The notes: generated by a model not told the origin, from the sequence alone. Numbered from the stretch's first letter, positions 10,919 through 29,173 are shown. The stretch is 64,000 nt of DNA from a virus (IMGVR_UViG_3300030419_006726:1-64000); one strand, 5' to 3'. Translations and numbers: made by a program.

Positions 10919-10962
10919 ATGACGATTTCAAAAACACGACTTAAGCGAATCATTAAAGAAGA
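10919..10962 (+). repeat. 44-nt direct repeat copy 1 (shared gene start)
   Basis: Identical to 11374-11417. It encodes MTISKTRLKRIIKE and begins at the ATG of the gene. Identity at every nucleotide, including wobble positions, points to recent duplication or gene conversion of a functional N-terminal signal. Confidence 0.9.
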
Positions 10963-11377
10963 GTTAAAAAAGTCTTTATATGAAGCACAGATGCCCGACA
11001 CGGTGTCTGTTGATCCGCAAGATTGTCCGGAAGGCCAAGGCTTTGGATCGCTAACTGGCAAGCCTTGTGCAGATTGGCTAGCCGGTAACAGCCCCCAAGC
11101 TAAAAAATATATTGAAAAACATGGAGATCCTGGCTGCACTCCTGGCGCTGGTTTTAGCCCGGTCACCGGTGAGAGATGCAAGCCCGGACAACCGGCCGCG
11201 GCGGCCGGGAAAGAAGCCGCCGGGAAAGAAGATGTTCAATCTGCAAAAGCAAAGAAAATGCAATTAAAATTGCAAAAGATGTTACAAAAACCAAACATAA
11301 AAAACAATCCAGAGGCAGTAAAAACGATTAAATCCCAAATGAGTAAGTTACAGTCGTATCTGTTAGATATAAAATGA
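10919..11377 (+). CDS. Putative head-targeted protein with capsid-targeting-like N-terminus
   Basis: A 152-residue protein starting after ACAGGAG. The N-terminal basic amphipathic helix MTISKTRLKRIIKEEL is followed by two short imperfect repeats (CPEGQGFGSLTGKPC and CTPGAGFSPVTGERC), each with paired cysteines, then an Ala/Gly/Lys linker and a Lys-rich helical tail. The helix resembles the capsid-targeting sequences of T4 internal proteins in placement and character (inference). It overlaps the next gene by 4 nt. Confidence 0.65.
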   Translation: MTISKTRLKRIIKEELKKSLYEAQMPDTVSVDPQDCPEGQGFGSLTGKPCADWLAGNSPQAKKYIEKHGDPGCTPGAGFSPVTGERCKPGQPAAAAGKEAAGKEDVQSAKAKKMQLKLQKMLQKPNIKNNPEAVKTIKSQMSKLQSYLLDIK

Positions 11378-11417
11378 CGATTTCAAAAACACGACTTAAG
11401 CGAATCATTAAAGAAGA
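11374..11417 (+). repeat. 44-nt direct repeat copy 2 (shared gene start)
   Basis: Second copy of the 10919-10962 repeat, again starting exactly at an ATG. The sequences diverge immediately afterwards (GAGTTA versus GAATTG). Confidence 0.9.
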
Positions 11418-11820
11418 ATTGTTGTCCGAAGCAATTGGCCCAGTAGATGGATCTGGTCTTAAAAGTGCCGGCGATGATCTCAAAGCTTCGATCGGACAAA
11501 TTGCTAGCACACTCGATGGTGCTGGCGAAGATGTGCGCACCGGCAGTATAACTGCTGCGGGGCAAGTCGCTTCTATAATGAAAATAATGCAAGAACTTGA
11601 AAAAATGGTTCGAAAATATGAACAACAGACCAATTACAGGCTTGATCAAGCAGAAAAATGGATCAACGGCCTTAAGAAAGATTGGATTTCAATTCGTCAA
11701 AATATCGCACAGATGGCGCCAAAAGATCATGATCATGGAGACGCTGCAGAGGAGCCCAAGGCTGCGCCGACAACCAGTGAAGAAGATCCTACAGCCGGTA
11801 TGCCTGATATTGGCAGTTAA
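11374..11820 (+). CDS. Putative head-targeted coiled-coil protein
   Basis: A 148-residue protein with the same first 14 residues as its upstream neighbour, then KEELLSEA, which contains a Leu-Ser-Glu that could be a T4-type prohead protease site (inference). The middle (MKIMQELEKMVRKYEQQ and on) is a probable coiled coil and the tail is acidic and Ala/Pro-rich. It is likely a minor or internal virion protein. Confidence 0.65.
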   Translation: MTISKTRLKRIIKEELLSEAIGPVDGSGLKSAGDDLKASIGQIASTLDGAGEDVRTGSITAAGQVASIMKIMQELEKMVRKYEQQTNYRLDQAEKWINGLKKDWISIRQNIAQMAPKDHDHGDAAEEPKAAPTTSEEDPTAGMPDIGS

Positions 11821-11872
11821 GCTGACAACTAACTAATTAAATAAGAGTCTGATATCGAAAAGGAAAACAACT

Positions 11873-12181
11873 ATGAAATTTACAAAATCTGAACTTATCA
11901 ACATCATCAAAGAAGAGCTAGCCCACTTAAAAGAGATTGAAACAAAGGCATCTGATGCGAAAATGGCACAGAGAATTATTGATACCATGATTAAGCAGAA
12001 GAAGGGTGTGTTTGAGGCACTAGCAAAAAATCCAGTTGCAGCTAGACAAGTTGTTGGATATCTTGCTAGCATACTCAACGTTGACATGTCGGATACTAAA
12101 GCCCAACGTGCTGTCGGAGTACAGGCAAGAAGAATGGGCGCCGGAAAGGATGAGCAGCCCGAACCCGAAGTGGGCCCGTAG
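11873..12181 (+). CDS. Putative head-associated small protein
   Basis: A 102-residue protein after AAAAGGA. The N-terminus MKFTKSELINIIKEEL has the same Lys-x-x-Leu-x-x-Ile-Ile-Lys-Glu-Glu-Leu pattern as the two upstream proteins but a different DNA sequence. The rest is helical, with a Lys/Ala-rich core and a Pro/Glu tail. It is probably the third member of one N-terminal signal family. Confidence 0.62.
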   Translation: MKFTKSELINIIKEELAHLKEIETKASDAKMAQRIIDTMIKQKKGVFEALAKNPVAARQVVGYLASILNVDMSDTKAQRAVGVQARRMGAGKDEQPEPEVGP

Positions 12182-13445: not shown

Positions 13446-13840
13446 ACTACTTTGACGAAACAATATGGCGTGATTTTAAACACTTGATTAATGAGCACAA
13501 AAAGCCGCTTATGGAGGACGATCCTTCATACAGGCAATCAACATATGCTATCGACCTTAAGATAAGAATTGAGAAGCGTAAGGGTGGAAACAAAGAGCAA
13601 ACCCTGGATGAAATAAGGGGCATACCTTTTCTCACTGTTGTAAGTATTGTGCCAGATACATCATCAAGTGATGAGGCGGCATATTTAACAACCTTAAAAT
13701 GTAAATTTGCCCTAACACAAAACAAAGATCCAATGGCATATAAGCAGAATGTTTTAATTCCATCGCTGATCAATATAAAAGGACTGAGCATTAAATACAT
13801 CAATAATCCGTCACTACTCGCGAGGCCTCGACAAGCATGA
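13442..13840 (+). CDS. Hypothetical protein
   Basis: A 132-residue protein from the ATG in the 23-nt repeat; an earlier in-frame start lies inside the preceding gene. It has N-terminal helices (IWRDFKHLINEHKK) and then mixed alpha/beta segments (IPFLTVVSIVPDT). It overlaps the metalloprotease gene by 4 nt. No family is recognised. Confidence 0.6.
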   Translation: MNYFDETIWRDFKHLINEHKKPLMEDDPSYRQSTYAIDLKIRIEKRKGGNKEQTLDEIRGIPFLTVVSIVPDTSSSDEAAYLTTLKCKFALTQNKDPMAYKQNVLIPSLINIKGLSIKYINNPSLLARPRQA

Positions 13841-14811
13841 AGTACGAAGTTCACAACAGATCAAATAAAGACATGTCAGACGTTGAGGGTATGATGCAGT
13901 CTTTTATGCCCTTCGCTCAGAAGCGGATTGGATTCAATAGACCACCGACTATCTTTTTTGATTCTGACGATATTAATGCGAAAAATGCTTTAGGAAAAAC
14001 TGGGTTTTACGATCCTGCAGACATGTCAATAACTGTTTTTGTCGACGGCCGTCATCCAAAAGATGTTTTAAGATCCCTCTCGCACGAACTGGTTCACCAT
14101 GGACAGAACTGTCGCGGGGATCTTGCTGCCGGCGGTGCGGGCGAGCAAGGATATGCTCAAAAGGACCCGCACTTGAGAGAAATGGAGAGGGAAGCTTACG
14201 AGGTTGGAAACCTCTGTTTTAGAGATTGGGAAGACAATTACAAACAACAAACTAATTATGTACAGATCGATGTTTCATTAAATGAAAACAGACAATTAAG
14301 GAGTAAAAAAATGGGAATCAACGATAAGAAATACAACACTCTCCACAAGGGATTGATGGAGCGTTGGGGTTATAAACTAACCGAAGAGGAAGAGGAACTT
14401 GAGGAGACTGCCACCGGACGCCGTAAAGATGGAGAGCGACGGCCGGAAGATCTTCGTAAGCGACCAATGGAAGAGTCTGATGATGTATTCGCACCTAACC
14501 ATTATTGCGTTCATCATGGAGGCGTCCAACACAACGGCAAGATTGAAATGGCTGAAGCTATTAATCACAATTACAATCTTGAGTTGTCTCGCGTAACTCA
14601 CTACGACATGAAATTGGCAGATGGAACTATTTTAGAAAATGTTGCCGCTGAAGATATTCAGGTTACAGAGGCATCGCTAGCAGAAGAGCACAGCCATCCT
14701 GCAAATCGCGACGATGACGACGATGACGACGACAAGAAAAATCTTAAAGAATCTGCGATAAGAAAAATCGTCCGAGAAACAATCAGAAGGAGACTTAAGA
14801 AAAATGGGTAA
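13837..14811 (+). CDS. Zincin metalloprotease with virion-like tail
   Basis: A 324-residue protein. HELVH at residues 83-87 is an HExxH zinc site; acidic residues in EMEREAYE about 30 residues later could supply the third ligand. The C-terminal half is non-catalytic: it contains NHYCVHHGGV and an Asp run (14707-14733), and ends in the basic helix IRKIVRETIRRRLKK, like the targeting helices of nearby proteins. Its place in the head-like module suggests maturation cleavage or delivery into the host (inference). Confidence 0.75.
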   Translation: MKYEVHNRSNKDMSDVEGMMQSFMPFAQKRIGFNRPPTIFFDSDDINAKNALGKTGFYDPADMSITVFVDGRHPKDVLRSLSHELVHHGQNCRGDLAAGGAGEQGYAQKDPHLREMEREAYEVGNLCFRDWEDNYKQQTNYVQIDVSLNENRQLRSKKMGINDKKYNTLHKGLMERWGYKLTEEEEELEETATGRRKDGERRPEDLRKRPMEESDDVFAPNHYCVHHGGVQHNGKIEMAEAINHNYNLELSRVTHYDMKLADGTILENVAAEDIQVTEASLAEEHSHPANRDDDDDDDDKKNLKESAIRKIVRETIRRRLKKNG

Positions 14812-15070: not shown

Positions 15071-15283
15071 ATGGTTTATTTTAAAATAAAAAGACCATTT
15101 AATACGTCAAGATCTGGAAGTGTCAGGCGAACCAACTCTGGAAGTCGCACCAGATCTAATGGTTCGACCCGGGCGCCCACGAGGCGAACCACTGCCCGTC
15201 GAAGAACCAGCACTAGCCGCAACTCTCGTACCGGACAAGCCAGAACTAGAGCGATGGGCAGAACGAGAAGAGGAAGGTACTAA
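15071..15283 (+). CDS. Protamine-like Arg/Ser/Thr-rich peptide
   Basis: A 70-residue protein almost free of acidic and hydrophobic residues after position 12; Arg, Ser, Thr and Gly make up most of it (RTTARRRTSTSRNSRT). This composition is typical of protamines and of virion DNA-condensing peptides. It lies between the basic protein and a coiled-coil protein, with a 1-nt overlap to the next gene. A DNA-packing role inside the head is inferred. Confidence 0.62.
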   Translation: MVYFKIKRPFNTSRSGSVRRTNSGSRTRSNGSTRAPTRRTTARRRTSTSRNSRTGQARTRAMGRTRRGRY

Positions 15284-15546
15284 TGTCTATTAATTTTAAT
15301 AACCTAACAAGAAGATTCTTACTTGGTGAAGAGAGATCTAAATCAAGTATATTTACATATATTCAAGGGCTACAAGAAACTCTAACAAATTTTACTCCAA
15401 GATCAAAAACTGAATCCCGTAGAGTTTCTATAGCCCGCGAACAATTGCGTGAGATTAAACGCTATGCTCGCAAACTTCAAAACGAAGTCGAGCTATTACA
15501 AGAAAAATTAAACGTTTTAGAAGAGCAAGTCGGACCTAAAGAATAA
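15283..15546 (+). CDS. Coiled-coil protein
   Basis: An 87-residue protein whose C-terminal half is a clear heptad coiled coil (EIKRYARKLQNEVELLQ and on). The Arg-rich N-terminal part (LTRRFLLGEERSK) resembles the basic targeting helices of the module. It could oligomerise as a scaffold or minor capsid part. It overlaps the next gene by 1 nt. Confidence 0.62.
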   Translation: MSINFNNLTRRFLLGEERSKSSIFTYIQGLQETLTNFTPRSKTESRRVSIAREQLREIKRYARKLQNEVELLQEKLNVLEEQVGPKE

Positions 15547-18389
15547 TGAAAAAACTACTGTTAGAAGGAGGTGTCGGAGGACACCTCAATCACCTTTATG
15601 ATAATAGGCAGATGACTGCCAATAAGATGATTAGCATATTGAAAAAGGCTTCTAATGGTGAGTTGATTGGAACCGAAAAGGCTGACGGCTATAATATATT
15701 TTTAGGCTATCAAGGCGGTGTTGCTAGAGCAGCAAGGAATAAAACCGATATGCGCCGCGGCGGAATGACAATGGAAGAATTGGCCGTTCGCGAGTTTAAA
15801 GGGGGTGAAAAAGTCCGACAAGCATATATTCAATCATTTAATGCTTACCAAGCCGCTCTTGATAGTCTAACTGATAAAGAAAAAATAAAGATATTTGGCC
15901 CTAACGGTGAAATATTCTACAATACAGAGATAATGGGCCCTGCAGCTGCGCAGGTTATAAACTATGATATCGATGTCTTGTCAATACATAGCGGCGGTCA
16001 TAAAACATATAATAGAGACACAGACACTGTTGAAATTATTGATGCAGCTGAAGCTTCCAAATATCTAGACAGAGCTGTCGACCGCTTTGAACAAGCAACA
16101 GCAGGACAAAGATTCTCAGTTCAACGTACTGCGTTTGTAAAGTTGAATGCACTTGATGGCGATGCTGACTTGAACGTTGCAATTGCCAGACTACAAAAGG
16201 CCGGCTATAGCGGCGCGATGACTATTGAAGAATATTTAGAAATGAAGCTGACACCGGCAGTTGAAGCGGCGCTTCCTTATTTCGATCGAAGAATTAAACA
16301 GGAAATTATTGATAGAATATTAAATAAAGAGAACAAGAAGGGACTTGCACAAATTACAAAAGGGTTTCCCAAAGAGCAGAAAGCCGCTGTCAGCGATCTA
16401 GTATTAAATCAATCTAAAAACTTAATCAAGGATGCCATATGGCCTATCGAAGAAGCTGTACACGACTTCGCTGTTGAAATGCTGCGTGGAATGGAGAGTG
16501 CCTATATTCTTGACAATGCAAAAGAGTTGGAAAGATTAAGGCAAGAAGTTACAACAGCGATTAGAGAAATCCAAGCCTACCGCGGCCCGGGCGAAGAAGA
16601 GGCAAAAGACATTCTTTTGCAACAACTGAAGAAACTAAAACAACTGGATGATGTTAGTTCAACCATGGAAGGGTTTGTGTTTGAAGAAGATGGCATGCTA
16701 TATAAATTTACTGGCAATTACGCTCCTATCAATCAAATCCTAGGATTGTTCAAGTATGGTCGAGGATCTACGCCGGCGCTTAAAAGGCAAGAACTCACGG
16801 AACAAGACGAGGCAGAGGAAGAGACACCAGAACAGTTTACGTCTCCAAACTCTCCAGAAGAAGTGACAGCCAACGATGCACAAATACTGGACAATATCGC
16901 AATCTTCCCGGGAGGTTTTAAGCCGCCCCATAAAGGACATTTTGAGGCAGCTGCCTATCTTTCAAACCAAAGAGGCGTGGATCAAGTATATGTTATTATA
17001 TCTCCGAAGGCTCGCGCAGAGCACGAATATGATTTAAGAATCGAAGTTACCGCAGAGCAGTCAAAAGAGCTTTGGGATTTGTACGCAGCTGCAAATCGAG
17101 ACAAGATCGGAGCGCCAATCATTACAATTATTGGAAAGACCGTAACACCTGTTACAGACGCATATGAATTTATGAAAAAGATGAATCCCGGTCAAACAGT
17201 CACATTTGCAAAAGGATCCAAAGACAAAAAGGATAAGAGATTTAATGGCGCCCAAGCTTGGTCGGACAAAAAAGGATATGGTTTAACAGTGAAATTGATA
17301 GACACTCCAGTATTTGGCCAAGGTATTTCTGGTACAATGATGAGAAAACACATTGCTAAAGAGGATTGGCGATCTTTTATCGACAACACCCCTCTTGAGA
17401 AAGATCAAGATAAACTTCGCGCATGGCAAATCGTTACAGGCAAGATACAGCCGTCACCACAAGCTGGTCCTGTGTTGGAGGAAACTATTTATAAAATGGT
17501 GCGTGAGGCTTTAACCGAGAAAGAGGGGAGAGGAGTTGGTGATAGAATAAGGGGAGTTATGCAGAGTGACCCCGTTAAAAGTGTCATGGGCAAGGTTGAT
17601 AAAGCGGCATGGGCTGGATCAAAAACGACCTCTAGGGGAAAACTAGGAAAGATGTCTATAGCACCGAAAGAGATTAACACTATTGGAGATCTTCGCAAAT
17701 TAATGAAAGTGATGAAGGCCTCCAAGGCCGGCAAAGCTGGTGCTAAGCGCGCTATCTCTGCGCTTGGTGGTGGCGCGTTGTTTCAGGCGATTGACGGTGT
17801 GCGCAAGATTTCCGATTTATATCAAAAAATGTACAACGCTCAAGATAATTTCTTGACAGGAACAGGAATGGATGCACTAAATGTTGACGACAACGTTGCT
17901 AAAATAATTGATGATAGAGTTGAAGACGCTTTTCTTAAGTATTTGATGGTTAAAATGAAAAATGCCTCGGATGATGAACCTTTGCCAAATGCAACCAAAA
18001 TGATACAGGGTTATCTAAAAAATACGTTTGGTGGCTGGTCTGTTGCCCCTGGCCAGAGCGCATCATTCACGATGGCACGTGAAGGTAAAAATAGATCATT
18101 AAACGAAGTGGAAAGCGAAAAGCAAAGACGATGGGCATGCGCGCAAATGGGAGACGATTTCAAAGGAGAACGCAAGTTAACTAAAAAACAGGCCAAGGAA
18201 ATGTGCAAATCAGAGGTTGAAGAATCCGAAGAGATAGAGGAAATGTCAGCCATGGGCGCCGGCGCAGTAGCTGGCCCGGGCACAGCACAAAAAAAGAAGA
18301 AGAGTTTAATCCGAGAAGAAGATCCAACCATTGACGAAGTACTGAACTATTTACTTAATGATCTGGGAGTTATAACAAATGCAAATTGA
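15546..18389 (+). CDS. Ligase-like plus HxGH nucleotidyltransferase fusion, large head-module protein
   Basis: A 947-residue protein. Residues 1-400 hold a KADG motif (45-48), EGFVF (375-379) and YKF (386-388), matching motifs I, IV and V of polynucleotide ligase/capping-type nucleotidyltransferases. Residues about 450-605 form an adenylyl/cytidylyltransferase-like domain with FPGGFKPPHKGH (HKGH at 462-465) and ISGTMMR (594-600), the signature of NMNAT/CTP-transferase folds. The C-terminal third has a targeting-like helix (IYKMVREALTEKE) and RRWACAQMG, then KKQAKEMC, common in phage virion proteins. A virion-delivered nucleotide-transferring enzyme is possible (inference). Confidence 0.75.
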   Translation: MKKLLLEGGVGGHLNHLYDNRQMTANKMISILKKASNGELIGTEKADGYNIFLGYQGGVARAARNKTDMRRGGMTMEELAVREFKGGEKVRQAYIQSFNAYQAALDSLTDKEKIKIFGPNGEIFYNTEIMGPAAAQVINYDIDVLSIHSGGHKTYNRDTDTVEIIDAAEASKYLDRAVDRFEQATAGQRFSVQRTAFVKLNALDGDADLNVAIARLQKAGYSGAMTIEEYLEMKLTPAVEAALPYFDRRIKQEIIDRILNKENKKGLAQITKGFPKEQKAAVSDLVLNQSKNLIKDAIWPIEEAVHDFAVEMLRGMESAYILDNAKELERLRQEVTTAIREIQAYRGPGEEEAKDILLQQLKKLKQLDDVSSTMEGFVFEEDGMLYKFTGNYAPINQILGLFKYGRGSTPALKRQELTEQDEAEEETPEQFTSPNSPEEVTANDAQILDNIAIFPGGFKPPHKGHFEAAAYLSNQRGVDQVYVIISPKARAEHEYDLRIEVTAEQSKELWDLYAAANRDKIGAPIITIIGKTVTPVTDAYEFMKKMNPGQTVTFAKGSKDKKDKRFNGAQAWSDKKGYGLTVKLIDTPVFGQGISGTMMRKHIAKEDWRSFIDNTPLEKDQDKLRAWQIVTGKIQPSPQAGPVLEETIYKMVREALTEKEGRGVGDRIRGVMQSDPVKSVMGKVDKAAWAGSKTTSRGKLGKMSIAPKEINTIGDLRKLMKVMKASKAGKAGAKRAISALGGGALFQAIDGVRKISDLYQKMYNAQDNFLTGTGMDALNVDDNVAKIIDDRVEDAFLKYLMVKMKNASDDEPLPNATKMIQGYLKNTFGGWSVAPGQSASFTMAREGKNRSLNEVESEKQRRWACAQMGDDFKGERKLTKKQAKEMCKSEVEESEEIEEMSAMGAGAVAGPGTAQKKKKSLIREEDPTIDEVLNYLLNDLGVITNAN

Positions 18390-19328: not shown

Positions 19329-19703
19329 ATGAACTGGCAACCAAAAAAAAGAAGAATTGGTAAAAATCGGTATTATTCAGTAGTTAGAAAACTGCGACGA
19401 GAGGGCAAGTCCACCGTCGAATTCGAAGTAATGCTTAATAGCCTGAGCATGGAGGATATAATAGCGCTTAAGCTAGAGTTGGCCTCCAAGGTTGCTGGAT
19501 CGAAATTATATGGATTTAAGCTGTGGCATTCTATACCAGACATTGTTAGAGATGCAATGTTGAAGTATGCGATGTCTGCAACAAGAACAAAGAATGAAGC
19601 CCAGAGATTCCTGGGTATCGACGCGCAAAGTTACAAGAAGATGTTAAAAAAGTATCAAACCGAGAGCTTTTTTGAAGAAAATGAGTTGACACTAGAACAA
19701 TAA
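19329..19703 (+). CDS. Putative HTH-type DNA-binding protein
   Basis: A 124-residue basic protein. The C-terminal segment TRTKNEAQRFLGIDAQSY resembles a Fis/sigma54-activator-type helix-turn-helix, preceded by a conserved-looking helical region (LASKVAGSKLYGFKLW). This arrangement occurs in hypothetical proteins of environmental phages as far as I recall. It is a candidate transcription regulator. It stands alone, ahead of the structured RNA and the tmRNA. Confidence 0.55.
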   Translation: MNWQPKKRRIGKNRYYSVVRKLRREGKSTVEFEVMLNSLSMEDIIALKLELASKVAGSKLYGFKLWHSIPDIVRDAMLKYAMSATRTKNEAQRFLGIDAQSYKKMLKKYQTESFFEENELTLEQ

Positions 19704-19866: not shown

Positions 19867-20106
19867 ATGTGGAAATTGTGGAGAGAAAACAATGGATATA
19901 TCCAAGGCGAACTACTTAGTAAGCACTCTTCAGAAAAAGCAGCTTTAAAAAAGGCAAAAGCTGTGGTAGAATATAAACATAAAGTAAAAGAAGAAGACAC
20001 CGAAGAGATTGTCATTTGGCTAGAAGATGAAGACAGAAGCACAATTGGCATTATAACACACAAAAAGGGGACGAAAAGGACTCGACAGGGTAAGAAAGAG
20101 AAATAG
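19867..20106 (+). CDS. Hypothetical small protein overlapping the tmRNA 5' end
   Basis: A 79-residue protein after AAAAGGAA. It begins MWKLWRENNGYIQGELL, has a Lys/Ala helix and then WLEDEDRSTIGII, all protein-like. Its final 13 codons lie inside the tmRNA 5' end and read as a basic tail (KGTKRTRQGKKEK). The function is unknown. Processing of the tmRNA from this mRNA would remove the end of the message. Confidence 0.55.
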   Translation: MWKLWRENNGYIQGELLSKHSSEKAALKKAKAVVEYKHKVKEEDTEEIVIWLEDEDRSTIGIITHKKGTKRTRQGKKEK

Positions 20107-20399
20107 TGCAAGTAGGTTAGACACGACCTTAACAGTTCAAAAACATAGTTGCAAATAACAACAATCACTTTGATTCTGTTCGCCTAGCGGCTTAATCAGG
20201 AGGCTGATCAGAGCCTTCTATCCAATCTGATCAAAATAACAGACAAGTTTTAAAAATCAAACCATTTATCGCAACAGGATGGTAAGCGATATCTTAACAC
20301 CATCTATTTTGTCAGCGGCTGATAGAAACTGACTAAACTTGTAAATGACTACAATTGGACTTATTGTGGACGCGGGTTCGACTCCCGCCGTCTCCACCA
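20067..20399 (+). ncRNA. ssrA: Transfer-messenger RNA (tmRNA)
   Basis: The 5' end GGGGACG pairs over 7 bp with CGTCTCC before an encoded ACCA end, and GGACTCGACAGGG matches the conserved tmRNA 5' sequence. The 3' tRNA-like domain has TGACTAAACTTGTAAATG and a T-arm GCGGGTTCGACTCCCGC. The tag frame resumes after ATAGTTGCA: codons from GCA at 20151 to TAA at 20193-20195 encode ANNNNHFDSVRLAA. tmRNA with SmpB rescues stalled ribosomes and tags products for proteolysis; the LAA end is the usual ClpXP signal. It is a complete one-piece form. Confidence 0.95.
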
Positions 20400-21163: not shown

Positions 21164-21703
21164 ATGGAACGACTTTTTGAAAATTGGCGCTCGCACGTTA
21201 GCGAACAAAAACAAAAAGAAGAAGAAGTCGTTCTATATCACGTCTCCTCTGTACCAAACATCGAAGTGTTGGATCCGGATATCGCAATTAAATCCGCTCG
21301 ACACTACACAAAGCAGGAATACCGTACATGGGACCGCCCCCGGGTATTCTTTTTTACCAATTGGGGTCAAGAGGACGTTGGAGTGGGAAAAATTGGCGGA
21401 ATCAATGGACATGTATACAAGGTCAGCATCAAAGAGAACGAGCTGTATCCTGTGTTAAGAGATCCTTTGCAGTTTTCACGCAGAATTGATGAGTATAAAG
21501 AGTTAAGAGAAAAAGAAAGAGGACTACCAAAACATTATCCAACAAATGCATATGAAATTGTGGCAACGTTCGCGGAACGAGAGCTTGGTGTTAAGGGTTT
21601 TATATATCCACAATCCAAGAAACCAAACCACATGATTGTGGCATTGTGGAAAAAGGTGCCGGTAGAAAAAGTTGATAAACCATTCTATAATCAGGAGAAA
21701 TAA
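21164..21703 (+). CDS. Possible ADP-ribosyltransferase-like protein with targeting-like N-terminus
   Basis: A 179-residue protein. The N-terminus MERLFENWRSHVSEQ resembles T4-type capsid-targeting peptides and matches the protein at 21966. The following pattern, VVLYHVSSVPNIEVLDP, RVFFFTN and then VYKVSIKENELYP, recalls ART-fold proteins (His/Arg start, FFT strand), as in phage Alt. Catalytic residues cannot be assigned confidently. If correct, it may be a virion-packaged modifier of host proteins. A neighbour with the same N-terminal motif supports a shared signal. Confidence 0.5.
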   Translation: MERLFENWRSHVSEQKQKEEEVVLYHVSSVPNIEVLDPDIAIKSARHYTKQEYRTWDRPRVFFFTNWGQEDVGVGKIGGINGHVYKVSIKENELYPVLRDPLQFSRRIDEYKELREKERGLPKHYPTNAYEIVATFAERELGVKGFIYPQSKKPNHMIVALWKKVPVEKVDKPFYNQEK

Positions 21704-21969
21704 TGGGTTTAATTGGAAAATCAGTATATAAGGTATGGGCGTTCAATTCGCTGCGATTTGGAAATATAGTCGCAGAAAAGAAGAAGGATGGCTGGAAATA
21801 TGTTAAAGTTGATTGGAAAGACGATGAGGCGTATGAAATGGACGTTGCTCGTGTAGTTGAGCTACGCAGTGTTAAATATGATGAAAATCACGAGTGGCAT
21901 CGGGTCGATAGTGTTAAGGTTTTCGATCCAATCACAATGACACAAACATTAGGAAAACTTAAAACATGA
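21703..21969 (+). CDS. SH3/KOW-like small protein
   Basis: An 88-residue protein starting 1 nt inside the previous stop. GKSVYKVWA, FGNIVAEKKKDGW and YVKVDWKDDEAY suggest a five-strand small barrel, distantly like the array members though lacking the exact Gly-Asp-Leu-Val. It overlaps the next gene by 4 nt. The function is unknown. Confidence 0.6.
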   Translation: MGLIGKSVYKVWAFNSLRFGNIVAEKKKDGWKYVKVDWKDDEAYEMDVARVVELRSVKYDENHEWHRVDSVKVFDPITMTQTLGKLKT

Positions 21970-22544
21970 AGGAAATATTCGAAAACTGGAATAAGTATAT
22001 CTTGTCGGAATCCGGATTATCTAGGGTTTACGAGCATATGATGGAGCACGACAGTGCAATACTTACAGCTTTTCGAAATGAATATTCGAATAAAGAAAAT
22101 TATGAAAGAAATAGAGAACTTAAGGCACAACTTTTAAGTATGGGCTACGGCGTTACAAAAGTCGACGGTTCTTATATTGAAAATTTTCAAACTCCACAAG
22201 CCATAGAAGTATCAGAGCAAAGCTATTTCGTCTCTAATCGGTCTGATGACGCTGGGTTTGTGGAGAGTGTTGAGTCTCTAGGTACACAATACGACCAAGA
22301 TTCTGTTTTGATAATTCCAGCTGGTGGCGAAGGCGCGTATCTGATTGGTACAAGACAAGGAAACGATTTTCCACCCTTCGGAGATAAAATCTCGGTCGGC
22401 AGCTTGCAAATGGGCCGCGAAGCCGAGTTCATGTCGAAGGTTAAGGGAAGGCCAATTGCTTTTAAAGAAGAATTAGAGACATACGATAAATTATCTAGAA
22501 ACCAAAGATGGGCAGTCAAGAAGCTGCTTGAGAGGAATAAGTGA
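21966..22544 (+). CDS. DUF3293-like protein with targeting-like N-terminus
   Basis: A 192-residue protein. MKEIFENWNKYILSES is the second copy of the Phe-Glu-Asn-Trp N-terminal motif and contains Leu-Ser-Glu, a possible prohead protease site. The body (RNRELKAQLLSMGYGV, SYIENF, EQSYFV, DQDSVLIIP) resembles the DUF3293 family, whose role is unknown. It is probably a minor virion component if the signal is real (inference). Confidence 0.6.
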   Translation: MKEIFENWNKYILSESGLSRVYEHMMEHDSAILTAFRNEYSNKENYERNRELKAQLLSMGYGVTKVDGSYIENFQTPQAIEVSEQSYFVSNRSDDAGFVESVESLGTQYDQDSVLIIPAGGEGAYLIGTRQGNDFPPFGDKISVGSLQMGREAEFMSKVKGRPIAFKEELETYDKLSRNQRWAVKKLLERNK

Positions 22545-24735: not shown

Positions 24736-25215
24736 ATGGCTACACCCTATGATACAGTTGTTGTTAGCGGCGGTTTCGATCCGCTACATGCTGGTCACGT
24801 TAGAATGATTATTGACGCAGCACGACATGGAAATGTTATTGTTGTTGCAAACTCTGATGCTTGGCTTAAGCGAAAGAAGGGTTATGTTTTTATGCCCTTT
24901 GAAGAGCGCTCTCAAATTCTAGAATCAATCAAGGGCGTACTAAGAGTGGAAGCGGTTGACGATAGTGATGGCACTGTCTGCGAAGCGCTTCGAAGAATTA
25001 AGCCAACCTATTTTGCAAATGGTGGCGATAGAACTAATATTAATACGCCGGAATTGGGTGTCTGCGCCGAGTTGGGTATTCAACCGCTGTGGAATATTGG
25101 TGGAGATAAAATTCAAAGTTCCTCCGATCTCGTCAAGGCTGCTAAGCGCCGCTCGCTGAATTGGACAGGAGACTATGTGCCTGGGGATGTATGGCATATT
25201 TCCGCGAAAGATTAA
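24736..25215 (+). CDS. Cytidylyltransferase-like nucleotidyltransferase (RfaE/TagD type)
   Basis: A 159-residue protein. VVVSGGFDPLHAGHVRM holds the HxGH nucleotide-binding motif (HAGH, about residues 18-21), and IQSSSDLV fits the second conserved Ser motif. The family transfers a nucleotide to a sugar or alcohol phosphate (ADP-heptose, CDP-glycerol and similar). Lacking a kinase domain, its substrate is unclear. It may feed the glycan island, though it sits among tRNAs. It has a strong ribosome site. Confidence 0.88.
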   Translation: MATPYDTVVVSGGFDPLHAGHVRMIIDAARHGNVIVVANSDAWLKRKKGYVFMPFEERSQILESIKGVLRVEAVDDSDGTVCEALRRIKPTYFANGGDRTNINTPELGVCAELGIQPLWNIGGDKIQSSSDLVKAAKRRSLNWTGDYVPGDVWHISAKD

Positions 25216-27850: not shown

Positions 27851-29173
27851 ATGGCTAGTAAAAAGACGTTTATTTTAGATACAAGCGTTTATTTGACAGA
27901 TGCCGATTCAATAAACGCGTTTAAAAATAATGATATCGTTATACCTCTAAAGGTTTTGGAGGAAATAGATAAGCATAAAAAAAGACAAGATGGAGTCGGC
28001 CTACATGCAAGAAAGACTATCAGAACTCTTGACGAATTGCGATCAAAGGGCTGTTTGCAAAAAGGTGTGCGTCTAGGAAAGGGCAAAGGCATCGTTAGTG
28101 TGAGAACATTCGATCCCTCTGAACTACCACCAGACTTAGATCCTTCTATTCCGGATCATGTAATTATTGCGACTGCTTTGTCTGAAAAATCAAAGAATCC
28201 AAATAGAAAAGTAATATTGGTGTCTCGCGATATTAATATGCGAGTCATCTGCGATGCCGTAGGTGTTCCCTCTGAAGACTATATGGCTCCTACGATTGTT
28301 ACTGAAATGGATCAGATTTACGATGGTTTTGCCTCCGTATTGGTTGATGATGAATTGATTGAGCAATATTATAATGACGAAGAGGTCGTTTTAGAGGAAG
28401 GTCGGGAATTGCATCCAAATCAATATATCATGCTGGTTTCCAATCAGAATGAAAAGAAAACAGCGTTAGCTAGATATATTAATAGCGAAATGCCTCTCAA
28501 AAAGATTGCACAATTTCGAAAAGGTATTTGGGGAATTAAGTCTAGAAACAAAGAGCAGATGTTCGCAATGGATATGCTTCTGAATCCAGAAATACAAGTT
28601 GTTTCTCTGATCGGAAAGGCCGGCTCCGGAAAAACTTTATGCGCAATTGCAGCTGGTCTGGAGCAAAGCATGGAATCTGGTTCCGAAGAGCCAATTTATA
28701 GAAGATTGATTGTTTCTAGACCGGTCCAACCCCTAGGAAAAGATATCGGGTATTTGCCAGGAACATTGGAAGATAAAATGGCGCCATGGCTAGCCCCCGT
28801 ACAAGATAATCTCAGATTCCTAATGGGAGATGATAACGTAACACTAGAGATGTATATGGAGAAGGGAAAGATCGAAATAGAGGCCCTCACGTACATCAGA
28901 GGGCGTTCCATATCGAATTCCTACATAGTCATCGATGAGGCACAAAATTTAACCACGCACGAAATAAAGACGATTATTACTCGTGTTGGCGAAGGGACAA
29001 AGGTCATACTAACTGGCGATATCGAACAGATTGATAATGTTTATTTAGATGAAAAATCAAATGGTTTGGTTTACGCGGTAGAAAAATTTAAATACCACTC
29101 AATCGCTGGCCATGTCACGCTCAAGAAGGGCGAAAGATCAAAAGTCGCAACTATTGCAGCACAAATATTATAA
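27851..29173 (+). CDS. phoH: PIN-PhoH fusion (PhoH2-type) ATPase/ribonuclease
   Basis: A 440-residue protein. The N-terminal PIN nuclease domain (about 1-140) has FILDTSVYL with its Asp at 10 and later acidic residues (VSRDINMR). The C-terminal PhoH P-loop ATPase has Walker A GKAGSGKT (255-262), PVQPLGKDIGYLPG and Walker B YIVIDEAQN. PhoH2 proteins are reported as RNA helicase/RNases. Stand-alone phoH is common in marine phages; the PIN fusion is less so. It lies alone after tRNA-Thr with its own downstream promoter boundary. Confidence 0.92.
   Translation: MASKKTFILDTSVYLTDADSINAFKNNDIVIPLKVLEEIDKHKKRQDGVGLHARKTIRTLDELRSKGCLQKGVRLGKGKGIVSVRTFDPSELPPDLDPSIPDHVIIATALSEKSKNPNRKVILVSRDINMRVICDAVGVPSEDYMAPTIVTEMDQIYDGFASVLVDDELIEQYYNDEEVVLEEGRELHPNQYIMLVSNQNEKKTALARYINSEMPLKKIAQFRKGIWGIKSRNKEQMFAMDMLLNPEIQVVSLIGKAGSGKTLCAIAAGLEQSMESGSEEPIYRRLIVSRPVQPLGKDIGYLPGTLEDKMAPWLAPVQDNLRFLMGDDNVTLEMYMEKGKIEIEALTYIRGRSISNSYIVIDEAQNLTTHEIKTIITRVGEGTKVILTGDIEQIDNVYLDEKSNGLVYAVEKFKYHSIAGHVTLKKGERSKVATIAAQIL

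Follow-up and report, generated by a model that had tools for sequence, protein, structure and literature searches.

A ligase-like and HIGH nucleotidyltransferase fusion protein in phages, possibly head-packaged, with a putative RNA-repair or anti-host role

A 947-residue protein encoded in a 64,000-nucleotide stretch of viral DNA (IMGVR_UViG_3300030419_006726:1-64000, here termed the window, part of a 154,915-base virus record in IMG/VR) combines a ligase-like domain with a HIGH nucleotidyltransferase domain and, judged from its sequence and predicted structure, looks like a late, possibly head-packaged protein with an RNA-repair or anti-host role. A preliminary description of this DNA had noted an open reading frame bearing KADG, EGFVF, YKF and ISGTMMR motifs and had proposed that it unites two different nucleotidyl-transfer domains. 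All four motifs are present (residues 45–48, 375–379, 386–388 and 594–600, respectively), and the two-domain claim is strongly supported by predicted folds, motif conservation and recurrence in relatives; structure prediction, which had been suggested as a check, returned the expected fold for both domains with high confidence (AlphaFold2, Foldseek). Single-sequence searches with the fusion protein yielded two weak matches, to Pfam CTP_transf_like (E 0.008) and to the phrog_395 cytidyltransferase family (E 7e-4), and gave no name above threshold to its N-terminal half in Pfam, PHROG or PDB. We assign a probability of roughly one half to the reading in which the fusion is a late, "polyvalent"-style two-enzyme protein that couples RNA repair to NAD(-like) chemistry and is perhaps carried in the head. 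The features on which this reading draws are listed in Table 1.

Table 1. Coordinates of the fusion gene, its predicted domains and motifs, and neighbouring genes in the window.
Feature	Position	Strand	Basis
Zn-metallopeptidase-like protein (HELVHH)	13837..14811	+	homologue in 32 loci, nearly all 0.7–3.2 kb upstream; weak DUF6647
Coiled-coil-like protein, 87 aa	15283..15546	+	stop overlaps fusion gene start; 33 loci
Ligase-like + HIGH nucleotidyltransferase fusion protein, 947 aa	15546..18389	+	ATG start; one place in record
Ligase-fold domain, residues 1–413, ~140-aa helical insertion before motif IV	15546..16784	+	AlphaFold2; Foldseek (PDB, BFVD); weak PF09414
Motif I KADG with predicted nucleophile Lys45, Glu44 just before it and Asn50 at +5	15678..15689	+	K, D, G in 86/86; N in 84/86; EKxxGxN as in T4 Rnl2
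Glu128, predicted motif III	15927..15929	+	kept in 85/86
Motif IV E375GFVF and motif V YK387FTG, predicted beta hairpin	16668..16715	+	E, G, F, Y, K, T, G in 86/86; strands 376–381, 384–388
HIGH/NMNAT-like domain, about residues 448–640	16887..17465	+	AlphaFold2 pLDDT 89.9; Foldseek; profile; CTP_transf_like
HxGH signature GGFKPPHKGH	16911..16940	+	family motif alignment
Second HIGH signature ISGTMMR (Arg600)	17325..17345	+	Arg kept in at least 90%
EKQRRWACAQMGDDFKG...LTKKQAKEMC module	18072..18170	+	common to otherwise unrelated phage proteins
C-terminal tail: IEEMSAMGAGAVAG motif (L/I-x-E site inside), KKKK, EVLNYLL helix	18237..18386	+	motif in 27 ligase-first-clade proteins, window included
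Acidic protein, pI 4.2, 283 aa	18379..19230	+	42 loci, 15 fused to ligase-HIGH ORF; E 2e-17 to 5e-57
124-aa protein, weak HTH_28 similarity, downstream	19329..19703	+	E 0.1; 37 loci
PIN-PhoH protein	27851..29173	+	homologue nearby in 21 relatives

The ligase-like domain was aligned across 86 sequences sharing approximately 23–59% identity with the window protein. In all 86, His13, His16, Glu44, Lys45, Asp47, Gly48, Arg64, Gly73 and Phe117 are invariant, as are Glu375, Gly376, Phe379, Tyr386, Lys387, Thr389, Gly390, Pro394 and Gln397, an invariance that rules out a chance origin for the short motifs. The conserved residues follow the ligase layout of the covalent nucleotidyltransferase (ligase/capping) superfamily, with motif I, a downstream arginine and motifs III, IV and V. 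AlphaFold2 modelled the domain with a pLDDT of 93.7 and a pTM of 0.90, and the 29 best Foldseek matches of this model in the PDB are all ligases, nearly all of them RNA ligases, headed by T4 Rnl2 (E 2e-3, probability 0.97) and followed by T4 Rnl1, a Naegleria RNA ligase and an archaeal RNA ligase, with capping enzymes and DNA ligases lower in the list. TM-scores against solved RNA ligases are low (~0.25), as would be explained by a helical insertion of ~140 residues that the order of secondary-structure elements places at about residues 227–364. Among predicted viral structures (BFVD), the closest are phage proteins that are unnamed or labelled "cytidyltransferase-like" (E 7e-47 to 1e-14), followed by mostly uncharacterised phage proteins of ~400 residues and then, with E about 3e-4, by proteins named as RNA ligases. 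Direct sequence assignment of the domain to a Pfam, PHROG or PDB entry was tried and rejected, with no match above threshold and only collective weak matches to the Pfam RNA_ligase family (PF09414); 30 of the 83 members gave such a match, with E values reaching 0.5 and a best value of 6e-4, and the window protein itself gave none. Profile alignment to T4 Rnl2 and its relatives with hhalign brought the two motifs I into register (E 0.0017) at a probability of only 15%, a result that is supportive, not decisive.

The domain shares with T4 Rnl2 (gp24.1), and with Rnl1/Rnl2-type ligases at large, the fold, an EKxxGxN motif I, the motif III glutamate, an EG[YF]V motif IV and the motif V lysine, and the EKIHGTN of Rnl2 is similar to the EKxDGxN of the window family. 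It differs from Rnl2, however, in having no C-terminal domain, the fold ending ~16–20 residues past motif V and giving way to the HIGH domain or to a stop codon. It also departs from Rnl2-type ligases in the ~140-residue insertion, in invariant GHxxH (N-terminal) and YKxTGxFAPxNQ motifs and in its fusion to a HIGH domain, and it scores under the curated cut-offs of the Rnl2 family.

For the HIGH domain, Foldseek placed NadD and PPAT at the top of 69 matches with E up to 1e-3, and a profile built from 65 sequences matched the MJ0541 NMN adenylyltransferase (E 4e-12) as well as PPATs; CTP_transf_like is found in 47 of the 65 members. The HxGH and (I/L/M)S(G/A)(T/S)xxR signatures and the fold are shared with NadM, NadR and NadD, phage NadM and NadR included, and the window protein carries both signatures in canonical form, as HKGH (within GGFKPPHKGH, residues 456–465) and ISGTMMR. 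In contrast to NadM and NadR, it has neither a Nudix domain (NadM) nor a fused P-loop kinase (NadR), its partner being the ligase domain, and many of its relatives differ from NMN/NaMN adenylyltransferases in carrying GxHH instead of HxGH. The preliminary description had held that loss of the key lysine and histidine residues in relatives would refute its reading. The ligase lysine is kept in all 86 relatives; the first HIGH histidine, kept in the window protein, is replaced by glycine in 23 of 67 relatives, many of them HIGH-first, which bear a GRFQP[MF]GxHH motif and in which the HIGH active site is thereby altered. The last histidine was demanded by the search pattern, so that its conservation is partly built in, and it is also kept in two proteins found without that pattern (L012 and L034). 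The record contains no NadV (PF04095). Every NadM phage has been reported to encode NadV (PMC9503650), and the absence of this usual partner hence weakens a reading in terms of NAD salvage.

The two domains travel together. A tblastn search of 50,697 phage records recovered the ligase domain in three, namely Microcystis phage Mel-JY01, the only named isolate among them, where the homologue, WWT39297.1, is annotated as a "cytidylyltransferase like protein", and the uncultured LR756508 and LR756500. A profile scan of IMG/VR located it in at least 590 viral contigs, and despite this abundance Pfam and PHROGs leave it unnamed. Among 75 complete ligase-domain ORFs, 69 are fused to a HIGH domain (67 detected by pattern, plus L012 and L034), which can either follow or precede the ligase domain. 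A split version, with the HIGH protein encoded by the next gene, occurs in L011 and likewise in L108, from a bacterial bin, while five of the 75 (L050 and L054–L057) have no HIGH domain within the sequence examined. In a quick, midpoint-rooted tree of the ligase domain, HIGH-first and ligase-first proteins form separate clades (SH-aLRT 100 on each side). Within the ligase-first clade the HIGH subtype switches between FKPP and GRFQP forms at least 4–5 times: near-identical ligase domains are joined to different HIGH subtypes in L037 and L043, L034 carries a third HIGH type, and the window protein is nearest to L028 and L029 in its HIGH domain and to L013 and L014 in its ligase domain. Retention of the pair through repeated exchange of the HIGH domain argues for functional coupling instead of an accident of fusion, and the two domains are thus probably coupled in function.

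The genomic context of the fusion differs between the two clades. In the ligase-first clade the conserved order is Zn-peptidase-like gene, coiled-coil-like gene, fusion gene, acidic protein gene and HTH-like gene. HELVHH-type ORFs identified by pattern number 33 upstream of the fusion, against two in other sequence about eight times as long, and in L040 the peptidase motif lies inside the same ORF as the fusion. In the HIGH-first clade the terminase gene follows 0.8–3.3 kb downstream of the gene, after small ORFs, and the portal gene comes next; at six HIGH-first loci, a fraction of this clade, a P-loop protein resembling Zeta toxins and polynucleotide kinases is encoded upstream or fused. Fused ParB-like domains also occur in relatives, and Flavobacterium phage immuto has its HIGH domain joined to a peptidase and to a region that, by eye, resembles Pol-beta. 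For neither the partner kinase nor the Zn-peptidase did searches of solved structures yield a convincing relative. The 64-kb window also encodes six tRNAs, a tmRNA and the PIN-PhoH protein.

Many of these traits recall the polyvalent proteins described in 2017 (PMC5512222), with which the family shares the union of several unrelated catalytic domains within a long polypeptide, a link to a candidate zincin, identified by motif (encoded upstream in 32 loci and within the ORF itself in L040), relatives with ParB-like and Pol-beta-like partners and, in part, a packaging-gene context, which holds for the HIGH-first clade and not for the window genome. The text of that work does not contain "HIGH superfamily" or "adenylyltransferase" and mentions RNA ligases a few times, not as polyvalent domains. 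Delivery of the present proteins with the virion would be a further parallel.

Several observations bear on whether the protein enters the head. The internal proteins of T4 are marked by a capsid targeting sequence (CTS) ten residues long, in which targeting depends mainly on residues 4 and 7 and processing on residues 8 and 10, and gp21 cleaves after L/I-x-E (PMC9026906); the leader of T4 IPIII, for instance, is MKTYQEFIAE. Of 1298 ORFs, 23 fit a pattern with this geometry (hydrophobic residues at 4 and 7, L/I at 8 and E at 10), whereas shuffled sequences gave 1.8 on average. One of the 23 is T4 gp24, which gp21 is known to cleave. Some leaders had already been viewed when the pattern was drawn up, and this enrichment is hence a lead and not a proof. 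Nine of the 25 ORFs of L105 match, its ligase homologue among them (MKSLIQYISE), as do all five separately encoded partner kinases (e.g., MIKLKDILNE). In these leaders the L105 homologue and the partner kinases resemble T4 internal proteins; the window protein does not, since its MKKLLLEGGV start misfits the geometry, and no ORF of the window record matches it. Other leader types are present in the window genome. An L/I-x-E tripeptide lies directly before the GG with which the ligase domain starts in 42 of the 59 proteins with upstream residues, as in the MKKLLLE|GG of the window protein, and one might guess that cleavage occurs there.

The preliminary description had placed the gene in a head-like module and suggested that its product is possibly packaged and is injected. 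The first claim fails, as the terminase, portal and major head protein genes lie at ~103–124 kb and the fusion gene at 15.5 kb. For the second, terminase and portal adjacency in the sister clade, the CTS-like leaders of one homologue and of the partner kinases, and the zincin-like neighbour speak in favour, whereas the distance to the head genes and the misfit of the protein's own N-terminus speak against; the case for packaging and injection is circumstantial. The same two adverse observations favour a soluble late enzyme that stays out of the virion, providing intracellular RNA repair and a NAD-restoring partner once expressed. Such an enzyme is conceivable, if rather unlikely, given that this reading must also accommodate the other clade's gene order upstream of terminase and portal, the leaders and the zincin-like neighbour.

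In the two-enzyme reading that we favour, the ligase domain would auto-adenylate at Lys45, probably with ATP, because no NAD-binding domain Ia is recognisable, and would then pass AMP to a 5'-phosphate end, so that RNA is sealed or activated. The likeliest substrate would be tRNA or other RNA cut by host defence nucleases, and the helical insertion before motif IV would take the place of the missing C-terminal nucleic-acid-binding domain. The HIGH domain, with less certainty, would link AMP to a small-molecule 5'-phosphate, most plausibly converting NMN to NAD+. More tentatively, late synthesis, carriage in the head and delivery with the DNA might make both activities available from the first minutes, and the prohead protease or the neighbouring Zn-peptidase might cut at L/I-x-E sites and release the units. 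The mending by phage RNA ligases of tRNAs cut by host defences (PMC7824862) and the restoration of NAD+ by phages (PMC9503650) are established themes; the pairing links these two forms of counter-defence and may point to their joint delivery. The earlier suggestion that the protein alters host RNA, tRNA or NAD metabolism is, on these models, plausible.

In support of this two-enzyme reading stand the intact ligase motifs and folds, the coupling of the domains and the fact that no second ligase-like protein was found in the record. Its late and packaging component draws on the terminase and portal context of the HIGH-first clade, the Zn-peptidase-like neighbour, the ParB and kinase fusions and the CTS-geometry leaders, and its RNA component on the six tRNAs, the tmRNA and PIN-PhoH in the window. 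Against it stand the lack of any ligase match above curated thresholds, a Foldseek E of ~2e-3 with a TM-score of ~0.25, the missing NadV, the distant head genes, the absence of a CTS fit and the loss of the first HIGH histidine in many HIGH-first relatives.

Searches of the record for PF09414, PF01068 and PF01653 returned no other ligase-like protein, and the negative PF01068 and PF01653 results, together with the packaging genes nearby in relatives, lend something to the idea that the protein acts on DNA, serving the phage as its DNA ligase by sealing nicks in the packaged or injected genome or by joining its ends. We consider this unlikely: among solved folds RNA ligases come nearest, DNA ligases appear in the Foldseek PDB list at E about 0.4 or worse except for one "putative" Aquifex entry, and the HIGH partner would be left unexplained. 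Furthermore, motif I of DNA ligases and of capping enzymes reads KxDGxR, unlike the Rnl2-like EKxDGxN of this family. Identity as an NAD+-dependent DNA ligase (LigA) was specifically rejected, with PF01653 negative across the record and no domain Ia in the secondary structure of the model.

These last two observations also weigh against a single coupled chemistry, in which the HIGH domain remakes NAD+ from NMN freed by an NAD+-using ligase, or in which both domains build 5'-5' pyrophosphate RNA ends (AppRNA or NAD-like). Both reactions do join AMP to a 5'-phosphate, and the fusion is near-obligate, occurs in either order and survives exchange of HIGH lineages; simple co-delivery of two countermeasures also accounts for the fusion, however, and a virion-delivered bifunctional enzyme serving one such pathway seems a long shot. 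Were it real, it would represent a new and abundant class of phage RNA-end-modifying counter-defence. A degenerate scaffold, with one or both domains catalytically dead and a binding or structural role, is very improbable, given that the catalytic residues of the ligase hardly vary across 86 divergent sequences, even with 23 of 67 relatives lacking the first HIGH histidine and 15 fused to the acidic protein.

Within the literature searched, which covered subscription papers only in part, no description of a ligase-HIGH fusion was found. Both domains belong to known superfamilies, and what appears new within that literature is a ligase branch marked by an insertion and by invariant motifs of its own, together with the near-obligate association of this branch with HIGH domains.

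The preliminary description had also mentioned a targeting-like helix. Beyond the HIGH domain, the protein continues into a C-terminal tail (residues ~640–947) with recurring short motifs, EExSxMxxGxVxG and EVLNYLL. Four loci (L003–L006) match the fusion protein only in the module of this tail that ends in LTKKQAKEMC.

Two N-terminal leader types distinct from the T4-like one, MKLLxENWRxxLxE and MKITKSQLxxIIKEEL, recur at the start of many mutually unrelated genes in the window's phage and in one of the compared loci (L001), and could be capsid-targeting signals. An L/I-x-E triplet, as in gp21 cleavage sites, falls at residues 6–24 in 8 of the 9 scored leaders, against 31 of 152 other ORFs, with the caveat that the leader patterns are by their own make-up biased towards the triplet. 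In a 17-kb stretch (L105) of a 410-kb 'Firmicutes' contig that is probably a big phage, T4-like leaders such as MKSIREYINE and MLTLKEYITE begin 9 of 25 ORFs, which suggests a large set of candidate head-internal proteins.

The tail of the fusion protein holds a short module, S(E/D)KQR(R/K)WACAQ...DFKG...LTKKQAKEMC, which recurs in otherwise unrelated phage proteins, where it is often preceded by a leader helix.

Positions of the features discussed, by sequence stretch
Feature	Stretch	Positions
Tail module carriers	L003	3958-4272
	L004	5062-7662
	L005	3-509
	L006	5992-6186
Genes with either further leader	window	10919-12178, 21164-22541
	L093	8843, 16382-16992
	L094	5171-8000
	L096	2605-10915
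	L001	154-2564
T4-like leaders	L105	1447-9571
Fusion gene and neighbours	L099	7738-11768
1564-residue protein	L040	137-4828
Basic ORF	window	15071-15283
tmRNA	window	20067-20399
Second HIGH-type ORF	window	24736-25215

The genes for the coiled-coil protein, the ligase-HIGH fusion and the acidic protein also have copies in the WOR-3 chromosome CP070664 (L099), an apparently bacterial chromosome in which they are flanked by housekeeping-like genes. These copies are either what is left of a prophage or a product of misassembly. In L040, a single protein combines the HELVHH peptidase motif, the ligase domain, six DUF4116 repeats and the HIGH domain.

A little upstream of the window's fusion gene lies a 70-residue, extremely basic (pI 12), protamine-like ORF rich in Arg, Thr and Ser, of which no homologue was found in the relatives' loci. 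The phage also encodes a tmRNA (tag ANNNNHFDSVRLAA); six tRNA genes lie a few kb away, and a separate, second HIGH-type nucleotidyltransferase-like ORF (VVSGGFDPLHAGH) is found among the tRNA genes.
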